Positions 18,676 to 31,079 of a stretch of 64,000 nt of DNA are shown piece by piece. Origin of the DNA: Candidatus Atribacteria bacterium (GTDB lineage Bacteria; Atribacterota; Atribacteria; Atribacterales; Thermatribacteraceae); the NCBI GenBank assembly GCA_029982245.1, contig JARRBX010000001.1:1-64000 (forward strand), written 5' to 3'. A program made the position numbers and the translations under genes. Under the pieces are notes generated by a model, which did not search any database, was not told the origin of the DNA, and saw only the letters and a program-made list of their open reading frames with translations. Position 1 is the stretch's first letter. Each line of letters starts with the position of its first letter.

Positions 18676-19473
18676 TCAACCCTTCTCGCCTACAACCACA
18701 AAGACCCTGCTAATAGAGTCAAAATCACAGCTGGGACGCAGAATTATTTCTTTAAAGAGCTGACCCGGTTTTTCTACCACTTCTTCCACTTTTCCTACCA
18801 CTATACCTTTTGGCATCTCCTCACTTATTCCTGAGGTTACCACCAGGTCACCTTTTTGCACTCCAGCACCCCGGCGGATGTACTCGACGCTGCACAAACC
18901 ATCACTGCTGCCAACCACCATCCCAATATCTCCGGTCCGCTGCACCAGCACACCTGCCGTAAATGAAGAGCTCAGAATTGTCCTGACCACAGCATAACTG
19001 CGATACACTTTTTCCACTCGCCCAACCAGCCCCTGGTAGGTAACCACCGGTAAACCTTTTCTGATTCCCTGTTTCTCCCCCACATCGATAACCAGAATCC
19101 CTAACCACTCTTCAGGGTTGCTTCCAATTACTTGAGCAGGCACAACTTCAAAAGGCACCCCTCTTTCGATTTCCTGAGCTTCAACCGCCGCTTCAAGTTT
19201 TTGAAGCTTTTCCCGCAACAGGGAATTCTCATTTTCCAGGATGCCTATTTCCATTTTGAGCCGCTGGTTTTCTTCAAGAAGCATCCGCTTCGAAGCAAAG
19301 TATGCATAAACGTTTAAAAAAGACCTTTTGACCACCATGCTACCCTGATAAAAACCCTTGCTAACCACCCGCCATTCCTCAACAAAGGGAATACCACCCC
19401 TCAAAACTGAAAAAACGAAAAGCTGAAAAGAAATAACAGCAATCACGGCTCCCACAAGATATACTTTTTTCAT
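18676..19473 (-). CDS. mreC: rod shape-determining protein MreC
   Basis: MreC (265 aa) is a periplasmic scaffold linking MreB to PBP2/RodA. A single N-terminal membrane helix (YLVGAVIAVISFQLFVFSVL) precedes a coiled coil at about residues 60-100 rich in Leu/Glu (LLEENQRLKMEIGILENENS). A beta-rich domain follows with VIGSNPEEWLGILVIDVGEK, GLVGRVEKVYRSYAVVRTIL and GDLVVTSGISEEMPKGIVVG. ATG 19473 overlaps the apbE stop by 4 bp. No mreB lies upstream as it does in many genomes. Confidence 0.93.
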   Translation of the reverse strand: MKKVYLVGAVIAVISFQLFVFSVLRGGIPFVEEWRVVSKGFYQGSMVVKRSFLNVYAYFASKRMLLEENQRLKMEIGILENENSLLREKLQKLEAAVEAQEIERGVPFEVVPAQVIGSNPEEWLGILVIDVGEKQGIRKGLPVVTYQGLVGRVEKVYRSYAVVRTILSSSFTAGVLVQRTGDIGMVVGSSDGLCSVEYIRRGAGVQKGDLVVTSGISEEMPKGIVVGKVEEVVEKPGQLFKEIILRPSCDFDSISRVFVVVGEKG

Positions 19474-20498
19474 GAGCGCGAGTCCGCCTTTAACAAATAA
19501 TAGTCGATTTCCTTCGTAACCTTGAATTTAAACTCGCTGAGCATATTGGGAGTAATTAACACTTTACCTTCGGCATCAATGATGCATATCCCGACTGCCG
19601 GGAAATTCTGAACAACCACAGAAAGCGCTTCTTTGCCACCCGCCATCAAAGCAGTAGCCAGAGCATCGCTTAAAGCAGCTTCCCTGGAAACCACTGTTAC
19701 GCTCCGAAAGTCTCTACAGGGAAAGCCGCTAAAAGGGTTCAAGATGTGAAAATATCTTTTTCCATCGGCAATGAAAAAGCGAAAATAATCCCCAGAAGTC
19801 GCCACCGCTCCTTCCTTCAAACTTATACTCCCAATGATACCCTCTCCACGAGGGTCTTTGATTCCAATACGAAACTCCTTTCCGCTGACCAAGACGGTAC
19901 CCCCTGCATTGATTAAAAAGGTCGAAATTCTCATTTCGCGAAAAAGGGATGATACCTTATCAGCGAGATATCCCTTGCCAATACCCCCCAGGTCAACACT
20001 GCCTGAACCCAGAAGTTGGGCTTCGCCGTTTTCGGGGTCAACGATTAAACTGGAATTTTGAACATCCAGAACAAGTTTCCGCACCGTCCTTTCTTCTGGA
20101 ACTGATGGCGTATCACCAGAAAATCCCCAAGCATCTACCAGAGACGCCATAAAGGGGTTAAAGTACCCTCCCGTTTTTTGCTGTAAAACCAGAGCTTCCT
20201 GCAAAACGGAAATGGTGTCAGGAGAAAGCTTGACCCCTTGCCGGGCATTGTTCAAGAGGGAAATCTCGCTCTCCGGAACAAAACGATTCCACTTCCTATC
20301 GAGCTCACTAACCAGCTTTTCGATTTCAGGCCTGAGCTTACTAAGCTCGTGAGCTTCAACTCTGACTTCGATGAATGAATCAAATCCGGTAAGATAAAAG
20401 GACTCTAAGGAAAATTCCTTCGCCCTCCAAAAAGCAAAAATCAGAGAAACCACTACGAAAGGGAAGGCCAGCAACCAGGTTACAACCTTGAAATTCAT
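19470..20498 (-). CDS. apbE: ApbE-like FAD:protein FMN transferase
   Basis: About 342 aa with an N-terminal membrane anchor (VVTWLLAFPFVVVSLIFAF), so probably on the outer face of the membrane. ApbE attaches FMN covalently to Thr/Ser of partner flavoproteins such as Rnf or Nqr subunits. Family motifs visible are NPFMASLVDAWGF, GSVDLGGIGKGYLADKV, LINAGGTVLVSGK, VATSGDYFRFF, HILNPFSG and ALSDALATALMAGG (metal-site Asp). Start ATG 20498 forms an ATGA overlap with the amrS stop. Its flavoprotein target is not in the window. Confidence 0.9.
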   Translation of the reverse strand: MNFKVVTWLLAFPFVVVSLIFAFWRAKEFSLESFYLTGFDSFIEVRVEAHELSKLRPEIEKLVSELDRKWNRFVPESEISLLNNARQGVKLSPDTISVLQEALVLQQKTGGYFNPFMASLVDAWGFSGDTPSVPEERTVRKLVLDVQNSSLIVDPENGEAQLLGSGSVDLGGIGKGYLADKVSSLFREMRISTFLINAGGTVLVSGKEFRIGIKDPRGEGIIGSISLKEGAVATSGDYFRFFIADGKRYFHILNPFSGFPCRDFRSVTVVSREAALSDALATALMAGGKEALSVVVQNFPAVGICIIDAEGKVLITPNMLSEFKFKVTKEIDYYLLKADSRS

Positions 20499-21496
20499 CG
20501 CCGAACTACGACAGGAAGAGGCTGCCCGCAAAACGCACAGCGATTTCCCCTAAGACCCTCACAGCTAACTCTATAACCGCTTCTTCTTATAACCGCATTA
20601 CCACAAGAAGGACAGTAAGTGGTAGAAGTCCGGTCTTCAATTACATTTCCCAGATAAACATAACGAAGTTTCTGGGAGGCGATTTCATAAGCTTTATACA
20701 ATAGCTCCACTGACGTAGGAGGCAAATCCAGCTGGTAAGCAGGAAAATAACGAGAAATGTGCAACGGTAGGTCAGGACTCAGTTCATAAATCCACTGTAT
20801 CATCTTTTCAAAAGATGCAAAATCATCGTTCAAACCACCAATCAGAAGGTGGGTGATTTCAACATGCACTCCTTTCCGATAAGCACGCTCTATGGTTCTA
20901 AGTACCGGCTCCAGCCTTCCACCACAAACCTTTCGGTAAAAATTTTCATCAAAGGATTTAAGGTCTACGTTCATAGCATCAATTAGAGGCAAAATTTCTT
21001 CAAGGGGTTGTTCTTCAACATATCCATTGGTTACCAAGACGTTGACCAAACCCTCTTTTTTGGCTAAATAAGCGGTATCAAAAACATATTCCCAAAAAAC
21101 GAAAGGTTCGTTATAGGTATACGCAATACCCACCGAGCTATATCTCAAGGCAAGCTCGACAACCTTCTGAGGCGGAAGTTCCCTAAGGGGAAAGTCTGCT
21201 GCAGAACTCTGCGATATCTCCCAATTCTGGCAAAATAAACAGTGCAAATTGCATCCTACGCTTCCCAAAGAAAGGATGGAAGCACCCGGTAAAAAATGGT
21301 ATAAGGGTTTTTTCTCTATTGGATCCATGGCCAACGAAGTAACCTTACCGTAAGTAAGAGCAAAAAGCACGCCTTCTCGGTTCTCCCTGACCCGACAATT
21401 ACCCCTTTTCCCTTCATCAATTAAACAGTGATGGGGACAGAGCAAACAGCGCACTCGTTTATTTTCAAGCTTTTCAAAAAAGCGAGCTTCTCTCAT
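20495..21496 (-). CDS. amrS: AmmeMemoRadiSam system radical SAM enzyme AmrS
   Basis: A 333-aa radical SAM protein of the AmrS/PflA-like family. The N-terminus has a Cys-rich stretch (CLLCPHHCLIDEGKRGNCRV), and the radical SAM cluster is in GCNLHCLFCQNWEISQ. FTYNEP-type AYTYNEPFVFWEYVFDTA, LVTNGYVEEQPLEEI, AMNVDLKSFDENFYRKVCGG and a C-terminal zinc-like CPSCGNAVIRRS ... NRCAFCG follow. The exact reaction of this system is not settled. amrA follows within the operon (upstream in transcription, 4-bp overlap); the Memo partner amrB is absent from the window. Confidence 0.92.
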   Translation of the reverse strand: MREARFFEKLENKRVRCLLCPHHCLIDEGKRGNCRVRENREGVLFALTYGKVTSLAMDPIEKKPLYHFLPGASILSLGSVGCNLHCLFCQNWEISQSSAADFPLRELPPQKVVELALRYSSVGIAYTYNEPFVFWEYVFDTAYLAKKEGLVNVLVTNGYVEEQPLEEILPLIDAMNVDLKSFDENFYRKVCGGRLEPVLRTIERAYRKGVHVEITHLLIGGLNDDFASFEKMIQWIYELSPDLPLHISRYFPAYQLDLPPTSVELLYKAYEIASQKLRYVYLGNVIEDRTSTTYCPSCGNAVIRRSGYRVSCEGLRGNRCAFCGQPLPVVVRR

Positions 21497-22050
21497 AGAT
21501 AGTCTTTTCTGAAAAACCTCTCCACCGTAAAACGGTAGATTTTAACAGGCTCATAAGGTGCGATACCAGCTTTGGCCCTGGCAATCCTAATTTGCTCCTC
21601 AACGGTGTCAACACCCTCTATATCCGGCAACAACAACCCTTTTCTAAAACCGCTTTCCACGATAATCCCATACTTGCGAGGGTCCAGCTTCTCTAAGCTT
21701 TCCACCGGCTCAGGAGGGGATAGGACATCAACGGAGATATCCAGCAATTCAAGCTCTTCGGGCGTTACCGGAGGAAAGCGTGGGTCTTCAAAAGCAGCTC
21801 CCACCGCATTGTGAATAACTTCCAAAGCCAGGTTCTCTCGTTGAGGGACAAAAGTCCCTATACATCCCCGCAGTTTACCCTTTTTCTTAAGGGAAACAAA
21901 AGCTCCTTTTCTTTCAGTCAACAGAGCAGGATGAATGTCTCGGGGAAGAGGCATAATTGACCCTTTTTCCAAGAAATAAGCAATTGAACGATAGGCAAGA
22001 TCTGTAATGTCTTTTCCGAACTTGTGATTTCTGGAGCAATGAGCATTCAT
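21493..22050 (-). CDS. amrA: AmmeMemoRadiSam system protein A (AMMECR1 domain)
   Basis: 185 aa with the AMMECR1 fold: IHPALLTERKGAFVSLKKKG, KLRGCIGTFVPQRENLALEV, AAFEDPRFPPVTPEELELLD, ISVDVLSPPEPV and RKGLLLPDIEGVDTVEEQI. The conserved LRGCIG motif is intact. Co-transcribed with amrS (4-bp overlap) and preceded by the YqgF-like gene (4-bp overlap). Function is unknown beyond its fixed association with the radical SAM and Memo proteins. Confidence 0.93.
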   Translation of the reverse strand: MNAHCSRNHKFGKDITDLAYRSIAYFLEKGSIMPLPRDIHPALLTERKGAFVSLKKKGKLRGCIGTFVPQRENLALEVIHNAVGAAFEDPRFPPVTPEELELLDISVDVLSPPEPVESLEKLDPRKYGIIVESGFRKGLLLPDIEGVDTVEEQIRIARAKAGIAPYEPVKIYRFTVERFFRKDYL

Positions 22051-22470: not shown

Positions 22471-22498
22471 AATAAAAAAAGCCCCCATTAAGGGGGCC
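22471..22498 (-). terminator. intrinsic terminator of the hydrogenase operon
   Basis: Minus strand: GCCCCC (22492-22497) pairs with GGGGGC (22481-22486) around a TTAAT-like loop, followed by TTTTTTTATT. It begins 14 nt after the hydA stop. The same CCCCC-N5-GGGGG plus U-tract design ends rsfS at 4570-4596. Confidence 0.9.
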
Positions 22499-22511: not shown

Positions 22512-24278
22512 TTACATCTTCTCTCGAGGCACATAGTGAGTATGCAAGAGATGATGCGCTTTCTCTCCATTAGGCTCACCCAAAAACTCTTCATAAAGCT
22601 GCTTAACGGCCGGATTTTCGTGAGACTTGCGCAGGGGGAGCTTACGGTCTACTTCATAAATGGCTTCAATGCGTTTCATCCGTACTTCAAGGTTAGTGGG
22701 AATAGGCTGGCCACCACCACCAATACACCCTCCAGGACAGGCCATTATTTCAATAAAGTGGTAGTTTGCTTCTCCTGAGCGAACCCGGTCCAGAAGTTTG
22801 CGCGCGTTGCCCAGACCATGAGCAACCGCTACATTAACCACGGTTCCATCAATGTTAACTGTGGCCTCTTTAACGCCCTCTATCCCACGCACGTCGTAAA
22901 AATCAATTTTACCCAGAGTTTTACCAGTAAGAATTTCATAAACCGAGCGCAAAGCTGCTTCCATAACGCCTCCTGTGGCACCGAAAACCGCAGCAGCTCC
23001 AGTGGATATGCCCAGCGGGTCATCAAAATCTTCCTCTGGCATCTCTTTCAAATCAATGCCTTTTTCTTTTAGCATGCGCGCTGCTTCTCTGGTGGTCAAC
23101 GAGTAGTCCACATCCTGGCAACCGCTGGACTTCATTTCATCACGCTGGCACTCGAATTTTTTGGCCGTGCAAGGCATGATAGAAACAACCACCATGTTGT
23201 TGGGGTCGATACCCAGCTTCTGGGCGTAATAGGTCTTGGCCACCGCTCCAAACATCTGTTGCGGCGATTTGCAGGTAGAGACATTCTCCATGAGGTCGGG
23301 ATAGAAATGCTCCATAAACTTAATCCAACCCGGGCTGCAGGAGGTTATCAGGGGAAGTTTACCACCCTTTTTGAAGCGGTTAATAAACTCGGTTCCCTCT
23401 TCGATTATGGTCAAATCAGCCGCAAAGTTGGTGTCAAAAACTTTGTCAAATCCAAGCCTCCTGAAAGCAGCCACCATTTTACCAGTGGAAACCGTTCCCG
23501 GTGGCAGCCCAAAAGGTTCCCCAATACTCACTCGTATTGCCGGAGCAGTCTGCAAAATGACAAATTTATCTGGGTCTTCAATGGCATCCCAAACCATTTC
23601 AACGTGGCTGACCTCAGACAGAGCACCAGTAGGACAGGAAAGTATACACTGACCACAGTTAACGCACACACTCTGCCCAAGGGGTAATCCTAAAGAGGGG
23701 CTGATAATAGTATCAAAGCTTCGATTGGCAAAATCAATCGCAAAAACCGTTTGTACTTCAGCACAGGTACGGACACAGCGACCACAAAGAATACAACGAT
23801 TAGCATCTCTTTTTACTGAAGGACTGCTCTGGTCAACTTCGTAGGTTTTTCGTTCACCCTGGAAACGAATTTCCCGTACTCCAAATTCATAGGCCAGTTC
23901 CTGAAGTTCACAGGAACCATTGCGATCACAGAGCTGGCAATCCAGAGGATGATTGGAAAGCAGAAGTTCGAGATTAGTCTTCCGGGCCTCTCGAACCTTT
24001 TTAGAAACAGTCCGGATTTTCATGCCTTCACGAACTGGAGTAACACAAGAAGCCACCAGATTGGGTTGGCCCTCCACCTCAACCACACAAATCCGACAGC
24101 CACCCCAGCTACTCAATCCCTCCATATAGCAAAGAGTGGGGATGTGGATTTTTTCCATCTTACAGGCTTCAAGTATGGTAACACCATCAGGAACCTGAAC
24201 TTCTCTGCCATCGATAAAAATGGTAACCAGTTTTTCACTCACTTCAGTCTTTTTCGCTCCCTCAACAACTTTAGCCAT
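22512..24278 (-). CDS. hydA: [FeFe]-hydrogenase catalytic subunit (HydA type)
   Basis: About 588 aa, cytoplasmic. Start ATG 24278 (MAKVVEG) has GGAGG and GAGG upstream; the frame is open to 24302. Domains in order: plant-type [2Fe-2S] (CYMEGLSSWGGCRIC, Cys about 50-78), NuoG-like His/Cys cluster region (NHPLDCQLCDRNGSCELQEL), two [4Fe-4S] (CILCGRCVRTC and CVNCGQCILSCPTGAL), then the H-cluster domain. Its three motifs are TSCSPGWIKFMEHFYPDL, MPCTAKKFECQRDEM and MACPGGCIGGGGQP. A small-subunit-like tail ends LLHTHY. Such subunits oxidise or evolve H2 in bifurcating HydABC complexes. It lacks the extra C-terminal [2Fe-2S] domain found in some homologues. Last gene of the seven-gene operon, followed by a terminator. 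Confidence 0.96.
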   Translation of the reverse strand: MAKVVEGAKKTEVSEKLVTIFIDGREVQVPDGVTILEACKMEKIHIPTLCYMEGLSSWGGCRICVVEVEGQPNLVASCVTPVREGMKIRTVSKKVREARKTNLELLLSNHPLDCQLCDRNGSCELQELAYEFGVREIRFQGERKTYEVDQSSPSVKRDANRCILCGRCVRTCAEVQTVFAIDFANRSFDTIISPSLGLPLGQSVCVNCGQCILSCPTGALSEVSHVEMVWDAIEDPDKFVILQTAPAIRVSIGEPFGLPPGTVSTGKMVAAFRRLGFDKVFDTNFAADLTIIEEGTEFINRFKKGGKLPLITSCSPGWIKFMEHFYPDLMENVSTCKSPQQMFGAVAKTYYAQKLGIDPNNMVVVSIMPCTAKKFECQRDEMKSSGCQDVDYSLTTREAARMLKEKGIDLKEMPEEDFDDPLGISTGAAAVFGATGGVMEAALRSVYEILTGKTLGKIDFYDVRGIEGVKEATVNIDGTVVNVAVAHGLGNARKLLDRVRSGEANYHFIEIMACPGGCIGGGGQPIPTNLEVRMKRIEAIYEVDRKLPLRKSHENPAVKQLYEEFLGEPNGEKAHHLLHTHYVPREKM

Positions 24279-24305
24279 CGATTTCCTCACTCCTCCAATC
24301 AATTT

Positions 24306-25946
24306 CTATTTGGCATAAACCATTTTTTTCTCAAGCTTACAAACGCCCGCCGGACAAGTTTTGCCCTCAACATGGGCAATAAATTCCTCTTCGAAGAACT
24401 GAAGGCAGCGCAACAAAGGATTGGGTGCTGCTTGCCCCAATCCACAAAAAGCAGTAGCTTTCATGTTCTCTCCCAGCGCTTTCAGCAAAACAAGGTTTTC
24501 TCTGGTTCCCTTGCCCCTCTCGATATTTTCCAGTATTTCAACAATTCGCTTATTGCCGATACGACAAGGCGTACACTTACCACAAGACTCGTGTAAGAAA
24601 AACTCTGCAAAGCTTTTTACTACGTCAACGATGCAATGGCTATCATCGATAATCGTGAGTGCTCCTGAGCCCAGAGCAGAATTGTATTTGGGAAGCGTAT
24701 CAAAAGCCATGGGCACATCCAGAAGTTCCGGTGTCATGGTACCTCCCGAAGGTCCTCCAGTTTGCACCAGCTTAAGACCACGCCCTCCAGGAATACCACC
24801 TCCAATTTCAAAAACCAGTTCTCGCAGAGTAATGCCCATAGGCACTTCTATAAGCCCTGCATTAACAATGTTACCAGTAAGGGTAAACACCTTGGTACCG
24901 GGACAAGTAGGAGTACCAATGTTTTTAAACCATTTCGCACCATTGAGAATTATGGGGGGTATGTTGGCCAAGGTTTCCACGTTATTGATAACAGTAGGTT
25001 TACCCCACAAGCCTTTCTGGGGAGGATAAGGAGGCTTGATGCGGGGTTCACCTCTCCCGCCTTCTATAGAATTAAGAAGTGCTGTCTCTTCCCCACAAAC
25101 GTAAGCTCCAGCTCCTTTGCGAATCTTAATATCAAAACTAAAACCTGAACCCAGGATGTCCTCTCCCAAAAGGCCATATTCTCGAGCCTGATCAATGGCT
25201 TTCTCCAAATGTGCAATGCTTTGAGGATACTCTGCGCGTACATATATGTATCCTTTCGAAGCTCCAACCGCATAGCCCGCTATGGCCATTGCCTCGATAA
25301 TGGAATGCGGATCGCCCTCAAGGATTAACCTGTCCTTAAAGGTGCCTGGTTCCCCCTCGTCCGCATTGCATACCACGAATTTTTGCTCACCAGGAGCTTT
25401 GTAGGTGAATTCCCATTTCAGCCCGGTCGGAAAACCTGCCCCACCACGGCCCAAAAGACCCGAAGCCTTTACCTCCTCTATCACATCCAGGGGTTCCATC
25501 GAAGAGAGCACCTTGGCCAGAGCCTGATACCCGTCACGGGCAATGTAATCTTCTATGTTATTAGGGTCTATAAAACCACTGTTGCGCAAGACCACCCTCC
25601 GCTCTTTTTGAAGCGGAAAAGTTGATACCAGCTCACCAACACCACCAGAGGAAGGCATTTTAAAGCGCAGTTCCTCTACCACGCGACCTTTAAGCAGATG
25701 TTCTTCAACTATTCTTGGAACATCCTGGGGGTGGACCGGAGCGTAGATGACGTTGTCGGGATATATTACCACAAAAGGCGAAGGTATTTCACTCCCCAAA
25801 CTCCCAGTCTCCAGCACTTGTACTTCTTGCGAAAGACCTCGTCTTTTGATCTCTGCAGAGAAGAGTTCCTTAATCTGCAAAGCCCCCAGGGGTACAGAAT
25901 TGCTGCTTACTTCCACAAGCACATGCGCCCTGTAAAGCATACTCAT
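24306..25946 (-). CDS. hydB: NuoF/HydB-like flavin subunit with cysteine-less N-terminal domain
   Basis: 546 aa. The FMN/NADH core is intact: SGLLGRGGAGFPTGLKWEF, CNADEGEPGTFKDRLILEGD, GAGAYVCGEETALLNSIEGG, then the [4Fe-4S] site ESCGKCTPCRIGNKR with FCGLGQ. Two departures stand out. The N-terminal ~125 residues form the thioredoxin-like domain but hold no cysteine; the usual ETGCxGPC becomes ETGSLGSE, so no [2Fe-2S] can be bound there. The protein ends 10 residues after CPAGVC, where HydB homologues continue into a 2[4Fe-4S] ferredoxin domain. It sits directly before hydA (27 bp) and after the second NuoE-like gene, so it is the likely direct partner of HydA. A second ATG at 25940 is a possible start. 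Confidence 0.93.
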   Translation of the reverse strand: MSMLYRAHVLVEVSSNSVPLGALQIKELFSAEIKRRGLSQEVQVLETGSLGSEIPSPFVVIYPDNVIYAPVHPQDVPRIVEEHLLKGRVVEELRFKMPSSGGVGELVSTFPLQKERRVVLRNSGFIDPNNIEDYIARDGYQALAKVLSSMEPLDVIEEVKASGLLGRGGAGFPTGLKWEFTYKAPGEQKFVVCNADEGEPGTFKDRLILEGDPHSIIEAMAIAGYAVGASKGYIYVRAEYPQSIAHLEKAIDQAREYGLLGEDILGSGFSFDIKIRKGAGAYVCGEETALLNSIEGGRGEPRIKPPYPPQKGLWGKPTVINNVETLANIPPIILNGAKWFKNIGTPTCPGTKVFTLTGNIVNAGLIEVPMGITLRELVFEIGGGIPGGRGLKLVQTGGPSGGTMTPELLDVPMAFDTLPKYNSALGSGALTIIDDSHCIVDVVKSFAEFFLHESCGKCTPCRIGNKRIVEILENIERGKGTRENLVLLKALGENMKATAFCGLGQAAPNPLLRCLQFFEEEFIAHVEGKTCPAGVCKLEKKMVYAK

Positions 25947-25952
25947 CCCCCT

Positions 25953-26435
25953 TCACTGACGGTAAAGAGCCAGTATCTCCCGGATTCTTCCTTCCGAAAG
26001 ATTACCGTAAGTCGTTTCATTAATCATCATAGCAGGAGCAACACCGCAAACTCCCAGGCAGCTGGTAACTTCAAGGGTAAAAAGACCATCCCTTGTGGTT
26101 TCTCCTTCTTTTATGCCCAACTCTTTCTTTAAAATTTTAATCACATCAGTTGCACCCCTAACATGGCAGGGAGTGCTCTTGCAAACTCGTATCACATACT
26201 TACCCACAGGTCTGGTTTCCAAAAAGGAGTAAAAAGTAGCCACTCCATACACCTTGCTTGCTGGAACACCCAGCTTTTTGGAAACTCTCTGAAGTACAGG
26301 TTGGGGTAAATATCCAAACTTAGCATTCAAATCTTGCAGGATACACAGGAGAGGGGTTTCCTCTCCTACATAGCGGTCAATTATCTGGTCTACCTCTTCA
26401 AAAAGCTTGTCGTCAACAGTAATAGCGCCCATCAT
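25953..26435 (-). CDS. hydC: NuoE/HydC-like [2Fe-2S] subunit (second copy)
   Basis: 160 aa, thioredoxin-like [2Fe-2S] protein that pairs with NuoF-type flavin subunits. The helical N-terminus (VDQIIDRYVGEETPLLCILQ, FGYLPQPVLQRVSKKLGVPA) precedes VYGVATFYSFLETRP. The four ligands lie in CKSTPCHVRGA and CLGVCGVAPAM. ATG 26435 overlaps the NuoF-GltD gene stop by 4 bp, and hydB follows after 6 bp. It is one of two NuoE-like genes in the operon and probably forms the HydABC core with 24306-25946 and hydA. Confidence 0.94.
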   Translation of the reverse strand: MMGAITVDDKLFEEVDQIIDRYVGEETPLLCILQDLNAKFGYLPQPVLQRVSKKLGVPASKVYGVATFYSFLETRPVGKYVIRVCKSTPCHVRGATDVIKILKKELGIKEGETTRDGLFTLEVTSCLGVCGVAPAMMINETTYGNLSEGRIREILALYRQ

Positions 26436-29400
26436 CCCTCTTCCTCCTCAACCATTGCCATTTGCTGATACTTCTTCATTACTTTCTCGAGATCACAGCG
26501 CAAGCAACGCTCGGCTTCCAGACGCGCAGCTTCCTCATCCAGACATAATTTAACCTCGGCAAAACTGCATACTCTTTCCCTAACTGGAATCTCGCGTGGC
26601 TTCACACGAGGAATTTCTTTTATCACTGGTGGTTCTTCTATAATCGAAGGACGTTCAGGTTGCACCACCAACTCCTCTTCCTCGCCTTTCACCTCTTTGA
26701 GATAATCATGTATACTAAAAGCAGCCTTTTTGCCACAAGCCATAGCGCTTACAACCGTTGCTTCAGCACCAATCATATCTCCACCAGCAAAAACACCGGG
26801 TAAAGAAGTGGAAAGAGTATACCTATCCACAACCACGTTGCCGCGATGATCCAGGGTAATACCTTCAGCAAATCCCTCCAGATTCGGAGCTTGACCCACG
26901 GCTGCCACCACCAGATCGCAATCCAGGACAACTTCTGCACCTTCAATAGGTACCGGTCTTCTTCTCCCGCTACGGTCGAACCCAGAGAGACGCATCCTCT
27001 GCAATTTTATACCCTTGACATTCCCTTTTTCATCACCCAGAATTTCCAGAGGAGCCATCAAGAAGTGGAACACAATGCCTTCCTTTTCTGCATCTTCAAT
27101 TTCCTCGTACAGAGCGGGCATCTCCTCACGAGTTCTGCGATATACCACGTTTACCTCTTCAGCACCCAATCTCAAAAGCGTCCGCGCAGCGTCCATAGCA
27201 GCGTTACCACCACCAACTACCACTGCTTTTTGGGGAGCCTCCACAGGCTCGCCAAGATTAACCTTTTTGAGGAGATCCAGGGCAGGGATAACACCCTTCA
27301 AGTTCTCCCCAGGAATGCCAAGTGGCATGCTCTTCCAGGCTCCTATAGCCAGGAACACCGCATCATAGTTTTCTCGCAACTCCTGCAACGTAAAGTCCTT
27401 GCCCAAACACTTATTAGGCTGAAAGTCTATTCCCATAGCCTGGAGCTGCTTTAGGTCATAGTCCAGAGCCTCTCTCGGCAAGCGATAAGGAGGAATGCCC
27501 ACCGCCAGCATTCCACCAATCACAGGAAGAGCTTCAAAAACAGTAACCGAATATCCCTTCCGAGCCAGGAAGTAAGCACAGGTAAGGCCTGCGGGACCAG
27601 AACCAACTATAGCTACTTTAGCATCGCGCTTTCTTTCCATAACCACAGGCAACATTAAACGGTTCACTCGAGCGTAATCAGCCACAAAACGTTTCAAGTC
27701 ATCTATGGCAACTGGTTCATCAAGCTGGCTGCGGCGACATTTAGCTTCGCAGTAGCGGTTGCAAACCCTTCCACAAACCGAAGGAAGAGGATTGTCCTCA
27801 CGGATAATCTGCAACGCCCCAATGTAATTTCCTTCTTTAATTTGTGCAACATATCCAGGAACGTCTATGCCCAGAGGACAGGCATGCTGACAGGGAGCTC
27901 TGAACAGCGGACGACAGACAACAGCAGGGCATCGTTTTTCCCGTATATGAGCTTCATATTCATCTCTGAAGTAGAGCAAAGTGCTCAAAACCGGATTAGG
28001 AGCAGTCTGTCCTAAACCACAAAGAGCAGTCGCTTTTATCTGTTTGGCCAAGTCTTCAAGTAATTCAATGTCTCCCTCTCTACCTTCGCCGTTGGTAATC
28101 CTCTGCAAAATTTCCAGCATCCGCTTGGTGCCTATACGGCAGGGCGTACATTTACCACAGGACTCATCCTGAACAAATTCCAAGAAGAAACGAGCAAGGT
28201 CAACCATACAGGTATCCTCATCCATTACGATGAGACCACCTGAACCCATGATTGCTCCCAGCTCCTTAAGTGAGTCATAATCTATTTCAACGTTAAGGTA
28301 CTCGCAGGGAATGCACCCTCCAGAAGGACCGCCAATCTGTACTGCTTTGAGTTTCTTTTCGCCTCGAACCCCTCCACCAAGGTCATAGACAATTTCACCA
28401 AGAGTAATTCCCATGGGAACCTCAACAAGACCAGTGTTCTGAATATCTCCAGCAAGTGCAAAAACTTTGGTACCTTTGCTTCCTTCAGTACCAATGGCTC
28501 TGAACCAATCTGCCCCATTCAAGATGATAGGAGGAATGTTGGCATAAGTTTCCACATTGTTAATTAAGGTTGGTTTACCCCACAGGCCCTCAGAAGCTGG
28601 GAAAGGAGGTTTGGGTCGGGGCATTCCTCTCTTTCCCTCTACAGAAGCGATAAGGGCAGTCTCTTCACCACACACGAAAGCACCAGCCCCAATTCTTATT
28701 TCTATGTCAAAATTAAAGCCCGTCCCCAGAATGTTTTCGCCCAAAAGACCATACTCTCTGGCCTGCTCAATAGCGTGTTGCAAGCGCTCCACGGCCAGCG
28801 GATACTCAGCTCGCACATAAACATACCCCTGAGAGGCTCCAACTGCATAACCCGCTATGGCCATGGCTTCGAGAACCGAATGAGGGTCTCCCTCAAGTAT
28901 GCTACGATCCATAAAAGCACCTGGATCGCCCTCATCAGCATTACAGATAACATATTTTTCATCTCCAGGTGACTTTCGGGTAAATTCCCATTTCAGCCCG
29001 GTCGGAAAACCTGCCCCACCACGGCCTCTCAAACCGGATTTTTTTACTTCTTCAATGACTTCTTCAGGAGTCATTGAAGAAAGCACCTTGGCCAGAGCCT
29101 GATACCCGTCACGGGCAATGTACTCCTCGATATTTAAAGGATTAATAAAACCACTGTTGCGCAGGGCGATTTTAACCTGCTTTTTGAAAAAATCGATTTC
29201 CTGAATAAACTTACGTCTTTCATCTTCAGAAGGCTGATAAAGAAGCCTATCTACAACTCTTCCCTTCAAAAGGTGCTCTTCCACTATTTCCTGCACATCT
29301 TCAACGGTCACCCTCTGGTAAAAAACCCCTTCCGGATAAATGATCATCAAAGGACCAAGATTGCAGGGACCAACACACCCGGTTTCTATCAAACGGACCT

Positions 29401-29521
29401 CATTATCCAAACCGTTTTTTTGAAGTTCTTTTACTAACGCCTCTTTTACCTTAAGTGCACCCGAAGAAATACAGGCTGCACCAGCACACAAAAGCACCTG
29501 ACACCTTTCCATCCCATTCAT
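26432..29521 (-). CDS. NuoF-GltD fusion: NADH-binding flavin subunit joined to an NAD(P)H:FAD oxidoreductase
   Basis: A 1029-aa fusion. Start ATG 29521 has GGGAGG upstream (MNGMERCQVLLC); the frame is open to 29566. Domains: thioredoxin-like [2Fe-2S] with ligands intact (CQVLLCAGAACISSG, TGCVGPC; 1-125); NuoF FMN/NADH core (GLRGRGGAGFPTGLKWEF, CNADEGDPGAFMDRS, VCGEETALIASVEG); [4Fe-4S] CGKCTPCRIG plus LCGLGQ (to about 520); GltD Fer4 domain (CPAVVCRPLFRAPCQHACP, CGRVCNRYCEAKC); FAD site AIVGSGPAGLTCAYFLARKG; NAD(P) site VVVGGGNAAMDAARTLLRLG with VYRRTREEMP, whose Arg pair suggests NADPH; C-terminal EAERCLRCD. NuoF-plus-GltD modules occur in Stn-type transhydrogenases, the nearest parallel I know. 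The likely role is exchange among NADH, NADPH and ferredoxin with the hydrogenase. Confidence 0.93.
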   Translation of the reverse strand: MNGMERCQVLLCAGAACISSGALKVKEALVKELQKNGLDNEVRLIETGCVGPCNLGPLMIIYPEGVFYQRVTVEDVQEIVEEHLLKGRVVDRLLYQPSEDERRKFIQEIDFFKKQVKIALRNSGFINPLNIEEYIARDGYQALAKVLSSMTPEEVIEEVKKSGLRGRGGAGFPTGLKWEFTRKSPGDEKYVICNADEGDPGAFMDRSILEGDPHSVLEAMAIAGYAVGASQGYVYVRAEYPLAVERLQHAIEQAREYGLLGENILGTGFNFDIEIRIGAGAFVCGEETALIASVEGKRGMPRPKPPFPASEGLWGKPTLINNVETYANIPPIILNGADWFRAIGTEGSKGTKVFALAGDIQNTGLVEVPMGITLGEIVYDLGGGVRGEKKLKAVQIGGPSGGCIPCEYLNVEIDYDSLKELGAIMGSGGLIVMDEDTCMVDLARFFLEFVQDESCGKCTPCRIGTKRMLEILQRITNGEGREGDIELLEDLAKQIKATALCGLGQTAPNPVLSTLLYFRDEYEAHIREKRCPAVVCRPLFRAPCQHACPLGIDVPGYVAQIKEGNYIGALQIIREDNPLPSVCGRVCNRYCEAKCRRSQLDEPVAIDDLKRFVADYARVNRLMLPVVMERKRDAKVAIVGSGPAGLTCAYFLARKGYSVTVFEALPVIGGMLAVGIPPYRLPREALDYDLKQLQAMGIDFQPNKCLGKDFTLQELRENYDAVFLAIGAWKSMPLGIPGENLKGVIPALDLLKKVNLGEPVEAPQKAVVVGGGNAAMDAARTLLRLGAEEVNVVYRRTREEMPALYEEIEDAEKEGIVFHFLMAPLEILGDEKGNVKGIKLQRMRLSGFDRSGRRRPVPIEGAEVVLDCDLVVAAVGQAPNLEGFAEGITLDHRGNVVVDRYTLSTSLPGVFAGGDMIGAEATVVSAMACGKKAAFSIHDYLKEVKGEEEELVVQPERPSIIEEPPVIKEIPRVKPREIPVRERVCSFAEVKLCLDEEAARLEAERCLRCDLEKVMKKYQQMAMVEEEEG

Positions 29522-29544
29522 AACGTTACCTCCCAACCTCTTCT

Positions 29545-29913
29545 CTATTCGGTGTGAATTACCCATTCACCCACAATTTGACCATTGACAAGGTGCGAAA
29601 CCACAACTTGCCTTGCCTTCTCTGGGGTTAAGTTCCCATAGAGGACCTTTTGTGAACCATTCTCAACGCTTATCAAGGGTTCTCTATCGCAGAGACCAAT
29701 ACACCCCGCCTGAGTCACTACCACGTCTTTCAGGTTGCGCCTGCTTATTTCATCCAGGACCGCAGACATAATTTGCCTGGCTCCTGCAGCAATGCCACAG
29801 GTTCCCATGTGCACCGTAACCTTATACTTTGCTTTCCCTTCCCGTAGAGCAACGTTTTTTTGAGCTTCCTCCTTAATTCTTTTGAGGTCCTCAATGCTTT
29901 TAATTTTCATCAT
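29545..29913 (-). CDS. thioredoxin-like (2Fe-2S) ferredoxin
   Basis: 122 aa, small thioredoxin-fold [2Fe-2S] protein common in clostridial-type hydrogenase operons. Motifs are HMGTCGIAAGARQIMSAVLD and TQAGCIGLCDREPLISVENG, giving three cysteines plus the conserved CxGxC spacing. AAGGAGG stands 4 nt before ATG 29913 (a second ATG follows immediately). It overlaps the HATPase stop by 14 bp and lies 23 bp before the NuoF-GltD start. Probably an electron-carrying subunit or assembly partner of the NuoF-type protein after it. Confidence 0.9.
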   Translation of the reverse strand: MMKIKSIEDLKRIKEEAQKNVALREGKAKYKVTVHMGTCGIAAGARQIMSAVLDEISRRNLKDVVVTQAGCIGLCDREPLISVENGSQKVLYGNLTPEKARQVVVSHLVNGQIVGEWVIHTE

Positions 29914-30469
29914 TTACGCCTCCTTCTCGAAAAGACTTTTCCTGAAAATTAATCCACTCCTTAACAGCCGGCAAGACAGCTGGTAAATCCTCAGGGTTAT
30001 CCACTCCAAGATACTCTAAGAGTTCCTTGCTACTAAAACGCCACTCAACGCCATCCACGTTATGTACAAACTCAAACTCTACTTCTGGGTTGGCAACAAT
30101 CAGAGCAACCAGAGTCTCGGCAATATCGCCAAGCGGAGGAAGGTCAATGTGGCTCCTTTTAAAGGTGACAATCAGCTCGGTTCCCTTGCCTTTCTGAGAA
30201 CTCAAACGGACATTTCCTTCGCACTGTTCAGCAAGCTGCTTGATGAGCGGAAGTCCCAAACCGATTTTTTTCCTCTTGTTTTGACCAGTAAAAAAGGGAT
30301 CAAAAACGTGCTTCAAGACATGCTCTTCCATACCTCTACCGTTGTCCTTAATAAGCAACTGCAAGGTGTCAGAAGACGTATCCTCAAAAACACCAATAGT
30401 CACTTTACTGGCCCCAGCTCGAAGAGAATTTTCAACCAGATCCAGAATATGAAGAGAAAGATCTTTCAT
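29900..30469 (-). CDS. sensorless histidine-kinase-type ATPase (HATPase_c) protein
   Basis: 189 aa beginning directly with a GHKL ATPase domain: N box LHILDLVENSLRAGASKVTI, G1 IKDNGRGMEEHVLKHVFDPF, G2 GLGLPLIKQLAEQCEGNV and GTELIVTF. No sensor, membrane helix or phospho-accepting H-box is visible, so it is not a complete two-component kinase. About 60 residues follow the ATPase domain. Such proteins recur between NuoE-like and 2Fe-2S genes in hydrogenase operons, but their role is unknown; regulation or assembly is a guess. Confidence 0.88.
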   Translation of the reverse strand: MKDLSLHILDLVENSLRAGASKVTIGVFEDTSSDTLQLLIKDNGRGMEEHVLKHVFDPFFTGQNKRKKIGLGLPLIKQLAEQCEGNVRLSSQKGKGTELIVTFKRSHIDLPPLGDIAETLVALIVANPEVEFEFVHNVDGVEWRFSSKELLEYLGVDNPEDLPAVLPAVKEWINFQEKSFREGGVNDEN

Positions 30470-30489
30470 TCACCTGTTCATCCGGTACC

Positions 30490-30996
30490 TCAGGTGTAAT
30501 TGCTAATAATTTCCATAATCTGAGAAGGATTCACTCTTTTATGAACATCGTTGTCTATACGCACCACTGGCGCAAGACCGCATGCTCCAGCACAGCGCAT
30601 CACTTCAACCGAATAAAGACCATCCTCAGTAACCTCCCCAACCCCTATTCCCAGCTCTTTCTGAATCTTGTCCAGGATTTCCTGTCCTCCCCGCACATAG
30701 CAGGCAGTACCCAGACACACCTGAATAACATGCTTTCCACGCGGTTTCATAGAAAAGAAGTGGTAAAAAGTTACCACTCCATAAACCTCGCTAAGAGGAA
30801 CATCAAGTTCACGCGCAACGATTCTTAGCACCGAAGGTGGTAAATAACCAACTATGTTTTGCACCGCATGCAAGGCTTGGATAAGAACACCCTTTTTCCC
30901 TTTAAAGCGGGATAAAACACCAAGCAAGGTGTCTTCAAGTTCAGAAGAAATCTCCATATCTCTGGTTCTTTCTTCTACTTCAAGGTTAGCCACCAC
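30490..30996 (-). CDS. NuoE-like [2Fe-2S] subunit (first copy)
   Basis: 168 aa, first gene of the hydrogenase operon. Same fold as 25953-26435 but clearly diverged: FKGKKGVLIQALHAVQNIVG, LPPSVLRIVARELDVPLSEV, VYGVVTFYHFFSMKPRGKHV, ligands in CLGTACYVRGGQEIL and CAGACGLAPVV. The start is GTG at 30994-30996 with GGGGGA five nt upstream. Two NuoE genes in one operon suggest one per NuoF-like subunit; this one is nearer the NuoF-GltD fusion and the ferredoxin gene. Promoter and palindrome lie in the gap before it. Confidence 0.93.
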   Translation of the reverse strand: MVANLEVEERTRDMEISSELEDTLLGVLSRFKGKKGVLIQALHAVQNIVGYLPPSVLRIVARELDVPLSEVYGVVTFYHFFSMKPRGKHVIQVCLGTACYVRGGQEILDKIQKELGIGVGEVTEDGLYSVEVMRCAGACGLAPVVRIDNDVHKRVNPSQIMEIISNYT

Positions 30997-31021: not shown

Positions 31022-31043
31022 ACCCAAACTTTGGGTTATTATA
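31022..31043 (-). promoter_or_regulatory. promoter -10 and palindromic operator of the hydrogenase operon
   Basis: On the minus strand a perfect TATAAT occupies 31038-31043. Right after it lies the 15-bp palindrome ACCCAAAGTTTGGGT (31022-31036), spanning the predicted start near 31031. A weak TTCACT lies 17 nt upstream of the -10. Placement over the start site is typical for a repressor operator. It does not match the Rex consensus (TTGTGAA-N6-TTCACAA). Confidence 0.6.
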
Positions 31044-31052
31044 AACCGAATT

Positions 31053-31079
31053 TCAAAAAAAGTGAAGCAAATCACTTAT
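31053..31079 (-). terminator. weak intrinsic terminator after clpC
   Basis: Minus strand: AAGTGA and TCACTT form a 6-bp stem around TTTGCT, followed by TTTTTTT-like Ts and TGAAATTC. The stem is short and AT-rich. It lies about 70 nt after the clpC stop and just upstream of the hydrogenase -10. Confidence 0.5.

Follow-up and report, generated by a model that had tools for sequence, protein, structure and literature searches.

A conserved Atribacterota operon with one [FeFe]-hydrogenase gene and two different diaphorase modules

Seven intact, co-directional open reading frames (ORFs) lie at 22512-30996 on the reverse strand of the window, the whole 64,000 nt stretch of DNA that was analysed. 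In order of transcription, they encode NuoE1, a HATPase, a 2Fe-2S-ferredoxin-like protein, a fusion of NuoF with GltD, NuoE2, NuoF2 and HydA (Table 1), separated by junctions of +20, -14, -22, -4, +6 and +3 nt. ORF and domain searches bear out the genes, order and domain assignments given in a preliminary description of this DNA, as well as its count of one H-cluster subunit, two NuoE, two NuoF and one GltD module. The hairpin and T run 3' of HydA, previously regarded as a terminator, are present, but the terminator scan as a whole gives no excess over shuffled sequence; similarly, the number of sites found by the promoter scan does not rise above that in shuffles. Neither the Rfam nor the tRNA scan gave a match in the window. 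The region downstream of HydA (19470-22050) appears to contain ApbE-like, radical SAM and AMMECR1-like genes followed by the MreC, PBP2 and RodA cell-shape genes, and no evident tie between these neighbours and the hydrogenase is observed.

Table 1. Features of the hydrogenase operon and its immediate flanks, in order of transcription
Feature	Coordinates	Strand	Evidence and remarks
Promoter-like site TTCACT-17-TATAAT	31038..31066	-	42 nt 5' of NuoE1; 10/12 consensus matches; weak
NuoE1, 168 aa, gamma subunit of [2Fe-2S] thioredoxin-like type, presumed to partner the fusion	30490..30996	-	PF01257; 4/4 ligand Cys
HATPase_c protein, 189 aa, probably regulatory	29900..30469	-	PF02518
Thioredoxin-like ferredoxin-related protein, 122 aa	29545..29913	-	3/4 canonical Cys: C39, G44, C71, C75
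NuoF-GltD fusion, 1044 aa	26432..29566	-	Pfam and PDB matches; start codon may be 10 codons inward, at 29536
GltD module of the fusion, residues 550-1044	26435..27919	-	Eight DPD_II Cys; YRRTREEMPA; K625 at the StnC K170 position
NuoE2, 160 aa, presumed partner of NuoF2	25953..26435	-	PF01257; 4-nt overlap with the fusion gene
NuoF2, 546 aa, non-bifurcating-type NADH subunit	24306..25946	-	FMN domain and B1 cluster only; T-K-Y; tree
HydA, 596 aa, [FeFe]-hydrogenase catalytic subunit	22512..24302	-	NF040763, 928 bits; H-cluster motifs; A1-A4 ligands; no C-terminal A5 domain
Terminator-like hairpin 3' of HydA	22480..22498	-	7-bp stem, 6 G-C pairs, then T run TTTTTTATTT

The genome to which the window belongs is a 1.44 Mb metagenome-assembled genome that is 79% complete. 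The operon is collinear in a closed conspecific genome (G061, 2.27 Mb), with 96.8% nucleotide identity over 8,700 bp and no gaps; together with the intact ORFs, this rules out an assembly artefact or a set of pseudogenes. Synonymous changes between the two copies far outnumber non-synonymous ones in the fusion, NuoE2, NuoF2 and HydA, while in the three short upstream genes the changes are too few for selection to be estimated. Elsewhere, the window's genome encodes a canonical hydrogenase of HydABC type and a PAS-linked one of sensor type. The latter is a 573 aa [FeFe]-hydrogenase-like PAS protein encoded 5' of the canonical NuoE-HydB-HydA genes (L140 and L215, in G000:C106 and G061), comparable to hydrogen-sensing group C arrangements. 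A further protein, of 1543 aa, combines a GltD module with a part resembling HdrA2 (L217:4194-8825 in G061; also G000:C92 near 41.7 kb), and versions of similar length are found in G001 and G007.

The fusion matches HydB/BfuB from the solved structures of HydABC and NfnABC over residues 20-556, and the GltD portion of StnC, NfnA and NfnB over residues 553-1027. When a confident AlphaFold model of the whole fusion as a single chain (pLDDT 86, pTM 0.77) was searched with Foldseek, its halves matched separate BfuB and GltD chains of known complexes, and none of the best matches listed spans both. The protein is better read as a variant of HydB/BfuB, in which a GltD (NADPH/FAD) module replaces the C-terminal B3/B4 [4Fe-4S] ferredoxin-docking domain. 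An in silico study of 2024 named this architecture 'sub-type I BfuABC' and considered an additional bifurcating FAD possible (PMC11406978). A scan of public genomes finds the fusion in many phyla, and in most of the loci read, a NuoE precedes it and a HydA, FdhA-like or NuoG-like protein follows directly; the last two kinds carry HydA-like N-terminal clusters. This recurrent position directly 5' of HydA, or of a protein with HydA-like clusters, suggests that the fusion is a HydB-type partner of HydA. The earlier idea of a separate Stn/Nfn-type transhydrogenase is disfavoured both by these neighbours and by the census of A subunits given below.

The bifurcating A-M-F set of residues is found in 70 of 71 sequences of the fusion family, some genomes being counted more than once, and the fusions retain the B1 and B5 ligands and all eight DPD_II cysteines. 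R695, the equivalent of NfnB R201, is likewise retained. In the structure of StnC, where the FAD is reported to be a non-bifurcating flavin, the proximal cluster is coordinated by K170, a residue that is glutamate in NfnB (PMC10482914). By alignment, 67 of the 71 fusion sequences have lysine at this position (K625 here), which argues against the idea of double bifurcation by the fusion. Taken with the YRRTREEMPA motif, the putative NADP(H) site in the GltD/Nfn family, this StnC-like lysine suggests that the GltD part may be a plain NADPH port.

The second diaphorase module is of a different kind. Residues diagnostic of bifurcating and non-bifurcating beta subunits were defined by Losey et al. 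(PMC7311640), those of the non-bifurcating type being Thr/Ser and Lys/Ser/Ala near the NADH site and Tyr near the FMN site. NuoF2 and its orthologues have T, K and Y, a non-bifurcating set of the Syntrophomonas wolfei type. A nearby Asp/Glu column separates NuoF2-type from fusion-type sequences in the same way as T-K-Y and A-M-F do. The B5 positions of NuoF2 read E-S-S-E, leaving no B5 ligands, and the whole B3/B4 domain is absent; S. wolfei HydB has also been reported to lack B3 and B4 (PMC11406978). The preliminary assignment of NuoF2 as an ordinary bifurcating HydB can hence not be upheld. Trees separate the T-K-Y NuoFs from all those with A-M-F, with strong support. In Bacillota, T-K-Y NuoFs occur in complete operons, with a ferredoxin-like gene, an E2-like NuoE and their own HydA (L194-L210). 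NuoF2 is 58-63% identical to these Bacillota proteins, as against 59% to the fusion, and it groups with them in the tree; the possibility that it is a recent copy of the NuoF part of the fusion was accordingly rejected. Neither NuoF of the operon carries a recognised ferredoxin-docking domain. The coupling to ferredoxin that had been suggested for this operon is consequently unsupported, as the B3/B4 ferredoxin domain is missing from both.

The P1, P2 and P3 H-cluster motifs of HydA are intact (TSCSPGW, MPCTAKK and EIMACPGGCIGGGGQ) and a HydF maturase is encoded in the genome (555 bits, cut-off 326), the combination looked for in group A [FeFe]-hydrogenases. The ligands of the A4 cluster, His118 and Cys122/125/131, are also retained; in Thermotoga maritima, the His-ligated A4 clusters of HydA join two HydABC protomers at a distance of 8.8 A (PMC9499530). 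Phylogenetically, the HydAs of those relatives in the phylum that have both modules nest within the clade of fusion-partner HydAs. Those of the order itself form a separate clade, outside both the fusion-partner and the T-K-Y-partner clades. PF10588, the A4-cluster domain of HydA and NuoG proteins, is found in only two proteins in each of the two single-contig genomes, G061 and G007. These are the operon HydA and a second HydA, which in G061 adjoins its own NuoE/HydB; the fusion is thus left without a spare NuoG/HydA-type subunit in either genome.

Other phyla likewise have an E1-like NuoE beside the fusion, and a HATPase_c gene is found in canonical Bacillota hydrogenase operons as well. Of the four cysteines that the thioredoxin-like ferredoxin fold normally has, only three remain in the small protein previously labelled a 2Fe-2S ferredoxin, and this C-G-C-C pattern is shared by 65 of 66 sequences from several phyla.

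The level of conservation of the operon was also studied across related genomes. NuoF2 was found in 22 of the 25 genomes of the order searched, and all 22 have the line fusion-NuoE2-NuoF2-HydA, as far as their contigs reach, so that the two NuoE/NuoF sets are linked throughout. Unlinked halves, named in the preliminary description as evidence against its reading, are therefore not seen in the order; in other lineages, either half can be found by itself beside a catalytic subunit of its own (L014, L194-L210, L127, L132-L134). One locus in Bacillota (L214) encodes NuoE, HATPase, fusion, HydA, NuoE2, NuoF(T-K-Y) and HydA, i.e. two complete enzymes in tandem, each with a HydA, and one in Sumerlaeota (L060) has the order fusion-HydA-NuoE-NuoF(T-K-Y)-HydA. 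The line-up in the order under study is that of these tandem loci without the first HydA.

In the rest of the phylum, nine genomes have fusion-NuoE2-NuoF2 with HydA, an FdhA-like gene or both 3' of it, and five lack NuoE2-NuoF2 but have the fusion together with HydA, FdhA or a subunit of similar kind (L132-L135, L152). L132 and L126, which share a genus code, differ by the NuoE2-NuoF2 pair. The converse is seen at L127 (G045), where an FdhA-like gene lies 3' of NuoE2-NuoF2 and both the fusion and NuoE1 are missing; this natural loss offers a possible point of comparison. At several loci (L120-L126, L128, L129) a gene for the molybdopterin protein FdhA comes after the fusion-NuoE2-NuoF2 cassette, either replacing HydA or standing beside it; at L121, where FdhA was identified by Pfam, a formate channel and a MobA-like gene lie 3' of it. 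The cassette seems to have been reused for formate. A single insertion of NuoE2-NuoF2 for the order and the phylum relatives was borderline rejected (AU p 0.046, for a group named after the tree had been seen), and two separate insertions are possible.

The composition of the operon, its residue signatures, cluster ligands and conservation, and the absence of a spare NuoG/HydA-type subunit can all be read from the sequence. Between the two complexes and the one large assembly envisaged previously, these data favour a shared HydA. The account towards which we lean, by a modest degree, is that one HydA exchanges electrons with two different diaphorase (NuoE plus NuoF) modules, one using NADH only and the other NADH and NADPH. 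The first, NuoE1 with the fusion, would consist of a BfuBC-like core with a bifurcating-type NAD/FMN signature and a GltD module handling NADP(H). As this module replaces the ferredoxin-docking domain, we infer that the second donor alongside NADH (or the second acceptor, if the enzyme oxidises H2) is probably NADPH rather than ferredoxin. The other, NuoE2 with NuoF2, would provide a simple NADH input of the S. wolfei Hyd1BC type. The direction of flow is probably towards H2 production, in a fermenter. HydA may take part in two alternative trimers, or in a mixed pair of HydAs that the His-ligated A4 cluster connects. The retained A4 ligands make a mixed pair feasible, and two alternative homodimers would fit them equally well. 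A single particle, in which an A4-wired HydA pair bears NuoE1 and the fusion on one side and NuoE2 and NuoF2 on the other and accepts a variable mixture of NADH and NADPH without ferredoxin, is a speculative and rather unlikely version of this scheme.

Two observations weigh against sharing. The HydA of the order falls into neither partner clade, and neither module requires the other, given that the pair occurs without the fusion (L127) and the fusion without the pair (L132-L135, L152).

The operon may instead encode two enzymes: an NADH hydrogenase of the S. wolfei type, formed by NuoE2, NuoF2 and HydA, and a co-regulated soluble NADH:NADP(H) transhydrogenase or dehydrogenase, formed by NuoE1 and the fusion without an A subunit. 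HydA does lie directly 3' of NuoF2 in the order, as it does in S. wolfei-type operons, the fusion by itself has one NAD and one NADP site, and a Type 4 of Bfu enzymes, devoid of the A subunit, has been put forward (PMC9304861). Nevertheless, we regard this division as unlikely: the fusion in other lineages directly precedes a HydA, FdhA-like or NuoG-like subunit, NfnAB is already encoded in the genome for transhydrogenation (L216), and relatives in the phylum that carry both modules have HydAs of the fusion-partner clade.

It is more doubtful still that the GltD FAD or the [4Fe-4S] clusters act as a site of ferredoxin-dependent bifurcation, coupling H2, ferredoxin, NAD(H) and NADP(H). This has been raised as a possibility for sub-type I BfuABC (PMC11406978), and is consistent with the A-M-F signature, B5 ligands, eight DPD_II cysteines and R695 that the fusions retain. 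Against it stand the absence of the BfuB B3/B4 ferredoxin domain, the proximal-cluster lysine shared with StnC, in place of the glutamate of NfnB, and the ferredoxin-independent type of NuoF2. That HydA serves NuoE1 and the fusion only, NuoE2-NuoF2 being redundant or having a partner encoded elsewhere, is very improbable, for despite the fusion-HydA operon without NuoE2-NuoF2 at L132, NuoF2 is under purifying selection and adjoins HydA in all 22 genomes, and no other NuoG/HydA-type partner lacking its own NuoEF exists in G061 or G007.

The operon was also compared with known systems. Sub-type I BfuABC and BfuABDC of Hydrogenedentota and others, described in silico only (PMC11406978), likewise combine HydA and NuoE with a BfuB in which DPD_II and FAD/NAD(P) domains take the place of B3/B4, and some have an extra D gene. 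The same domain swap and the accompanying NuoE and HydA are found here, but instead of a single BfuB and BfuC per cluster, a second NuoE/NuoF pair of non-bifurcating type is placed between the fusion and the single HydA. S. wolfei Hyd1ABC and Syntrophus aciditrophicus HydAB, which are NADH-dependent and ferredoxin-independent (PMC5626996, PMC7311640), resemble NuoE2-NuoF2-HydA in the T/K/Y residues and the lack of B3/B4; they differ from the present operon in having no second beta/gamma set with an NADP(H) module 5' of HydA. With the bifurcating HydABC of T. maritima and Acetobacterium woodii, the operon has in common a HydA with A1-A4 and the H-cluster, an FMN-binding NuoF, a NuoE and possibly an A4-joined pair. 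Unlike in that enzyme, there are two kinds of NuoF, both without the B3/B4 ferredoxin domain, and neither the fusion nor NuoF2 has the B1-B5 complement by which BfuB of the Bfu (HydABC) family is defined (PMC9304861).

StnABC and the Nfn-Bfu enzymes (PMC7483475, PMC10482914, PMC9304861) share the BfuBC-type core, the GltD NADPH module and the lysine at the proximal cluster. In those, GltD is part of BfuA and BfuB retains B3/B4, whereas here GltD is part of BfuB, and BfuA is a hydrogenase; the operon has no NuoG-GltD gene, and GltD is joined to NuoF, so that the GltD-NuoG fusion and the NuoF with a C-terminal [4Fe-4S] pair that characterise Stn are not the arrangement observed. Hyt/FdhFeFe-Bfu of Clostridium autoethanogenum (described in PMC9304861) is likewise a large soluble hydrogenase that is built of several modules and linked to pyridine nucleotides, but it has one BfuBC core and two catalytic sites, as opposed to two diaphorase modules and one catalytic site. 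Each half of the operon is hence already known: the fusion BfuB from in silico work, the NADH module of S. wolfei type from biochemistry. A literature search limited to open-access text found no pairing of both modules on one HydA, and this combination on a single hydrogenase gene, conserved across the order and present in similar form elsewhere in this deep-subsurface phylum, appears to be undescribed.

Bifurcating and non-bifurcating [FeFe]-hydrogenases have been treated as separate enzymes on the basis of their beta subunits, and here one of each accompanies a single HydA. If HydA is shared, this would offer a direct way of comparing both inputs on one H-cluster. With physiological potentials taken from PMC9304861, the equilibrium H2 pressure at 25 C is calculated to be ~3 Pa for NADH, ~145 Pa for NADH with NADPH and ~15 kPa for NADH with ferredoxin. 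Good growth of Atribacter laminatus depends on the removal of H2 (PMC7736352), a setting in which the choice of electron input would matter. Given these calculated pressures, the hydrogenases of the cell could cover a graded range of H2.
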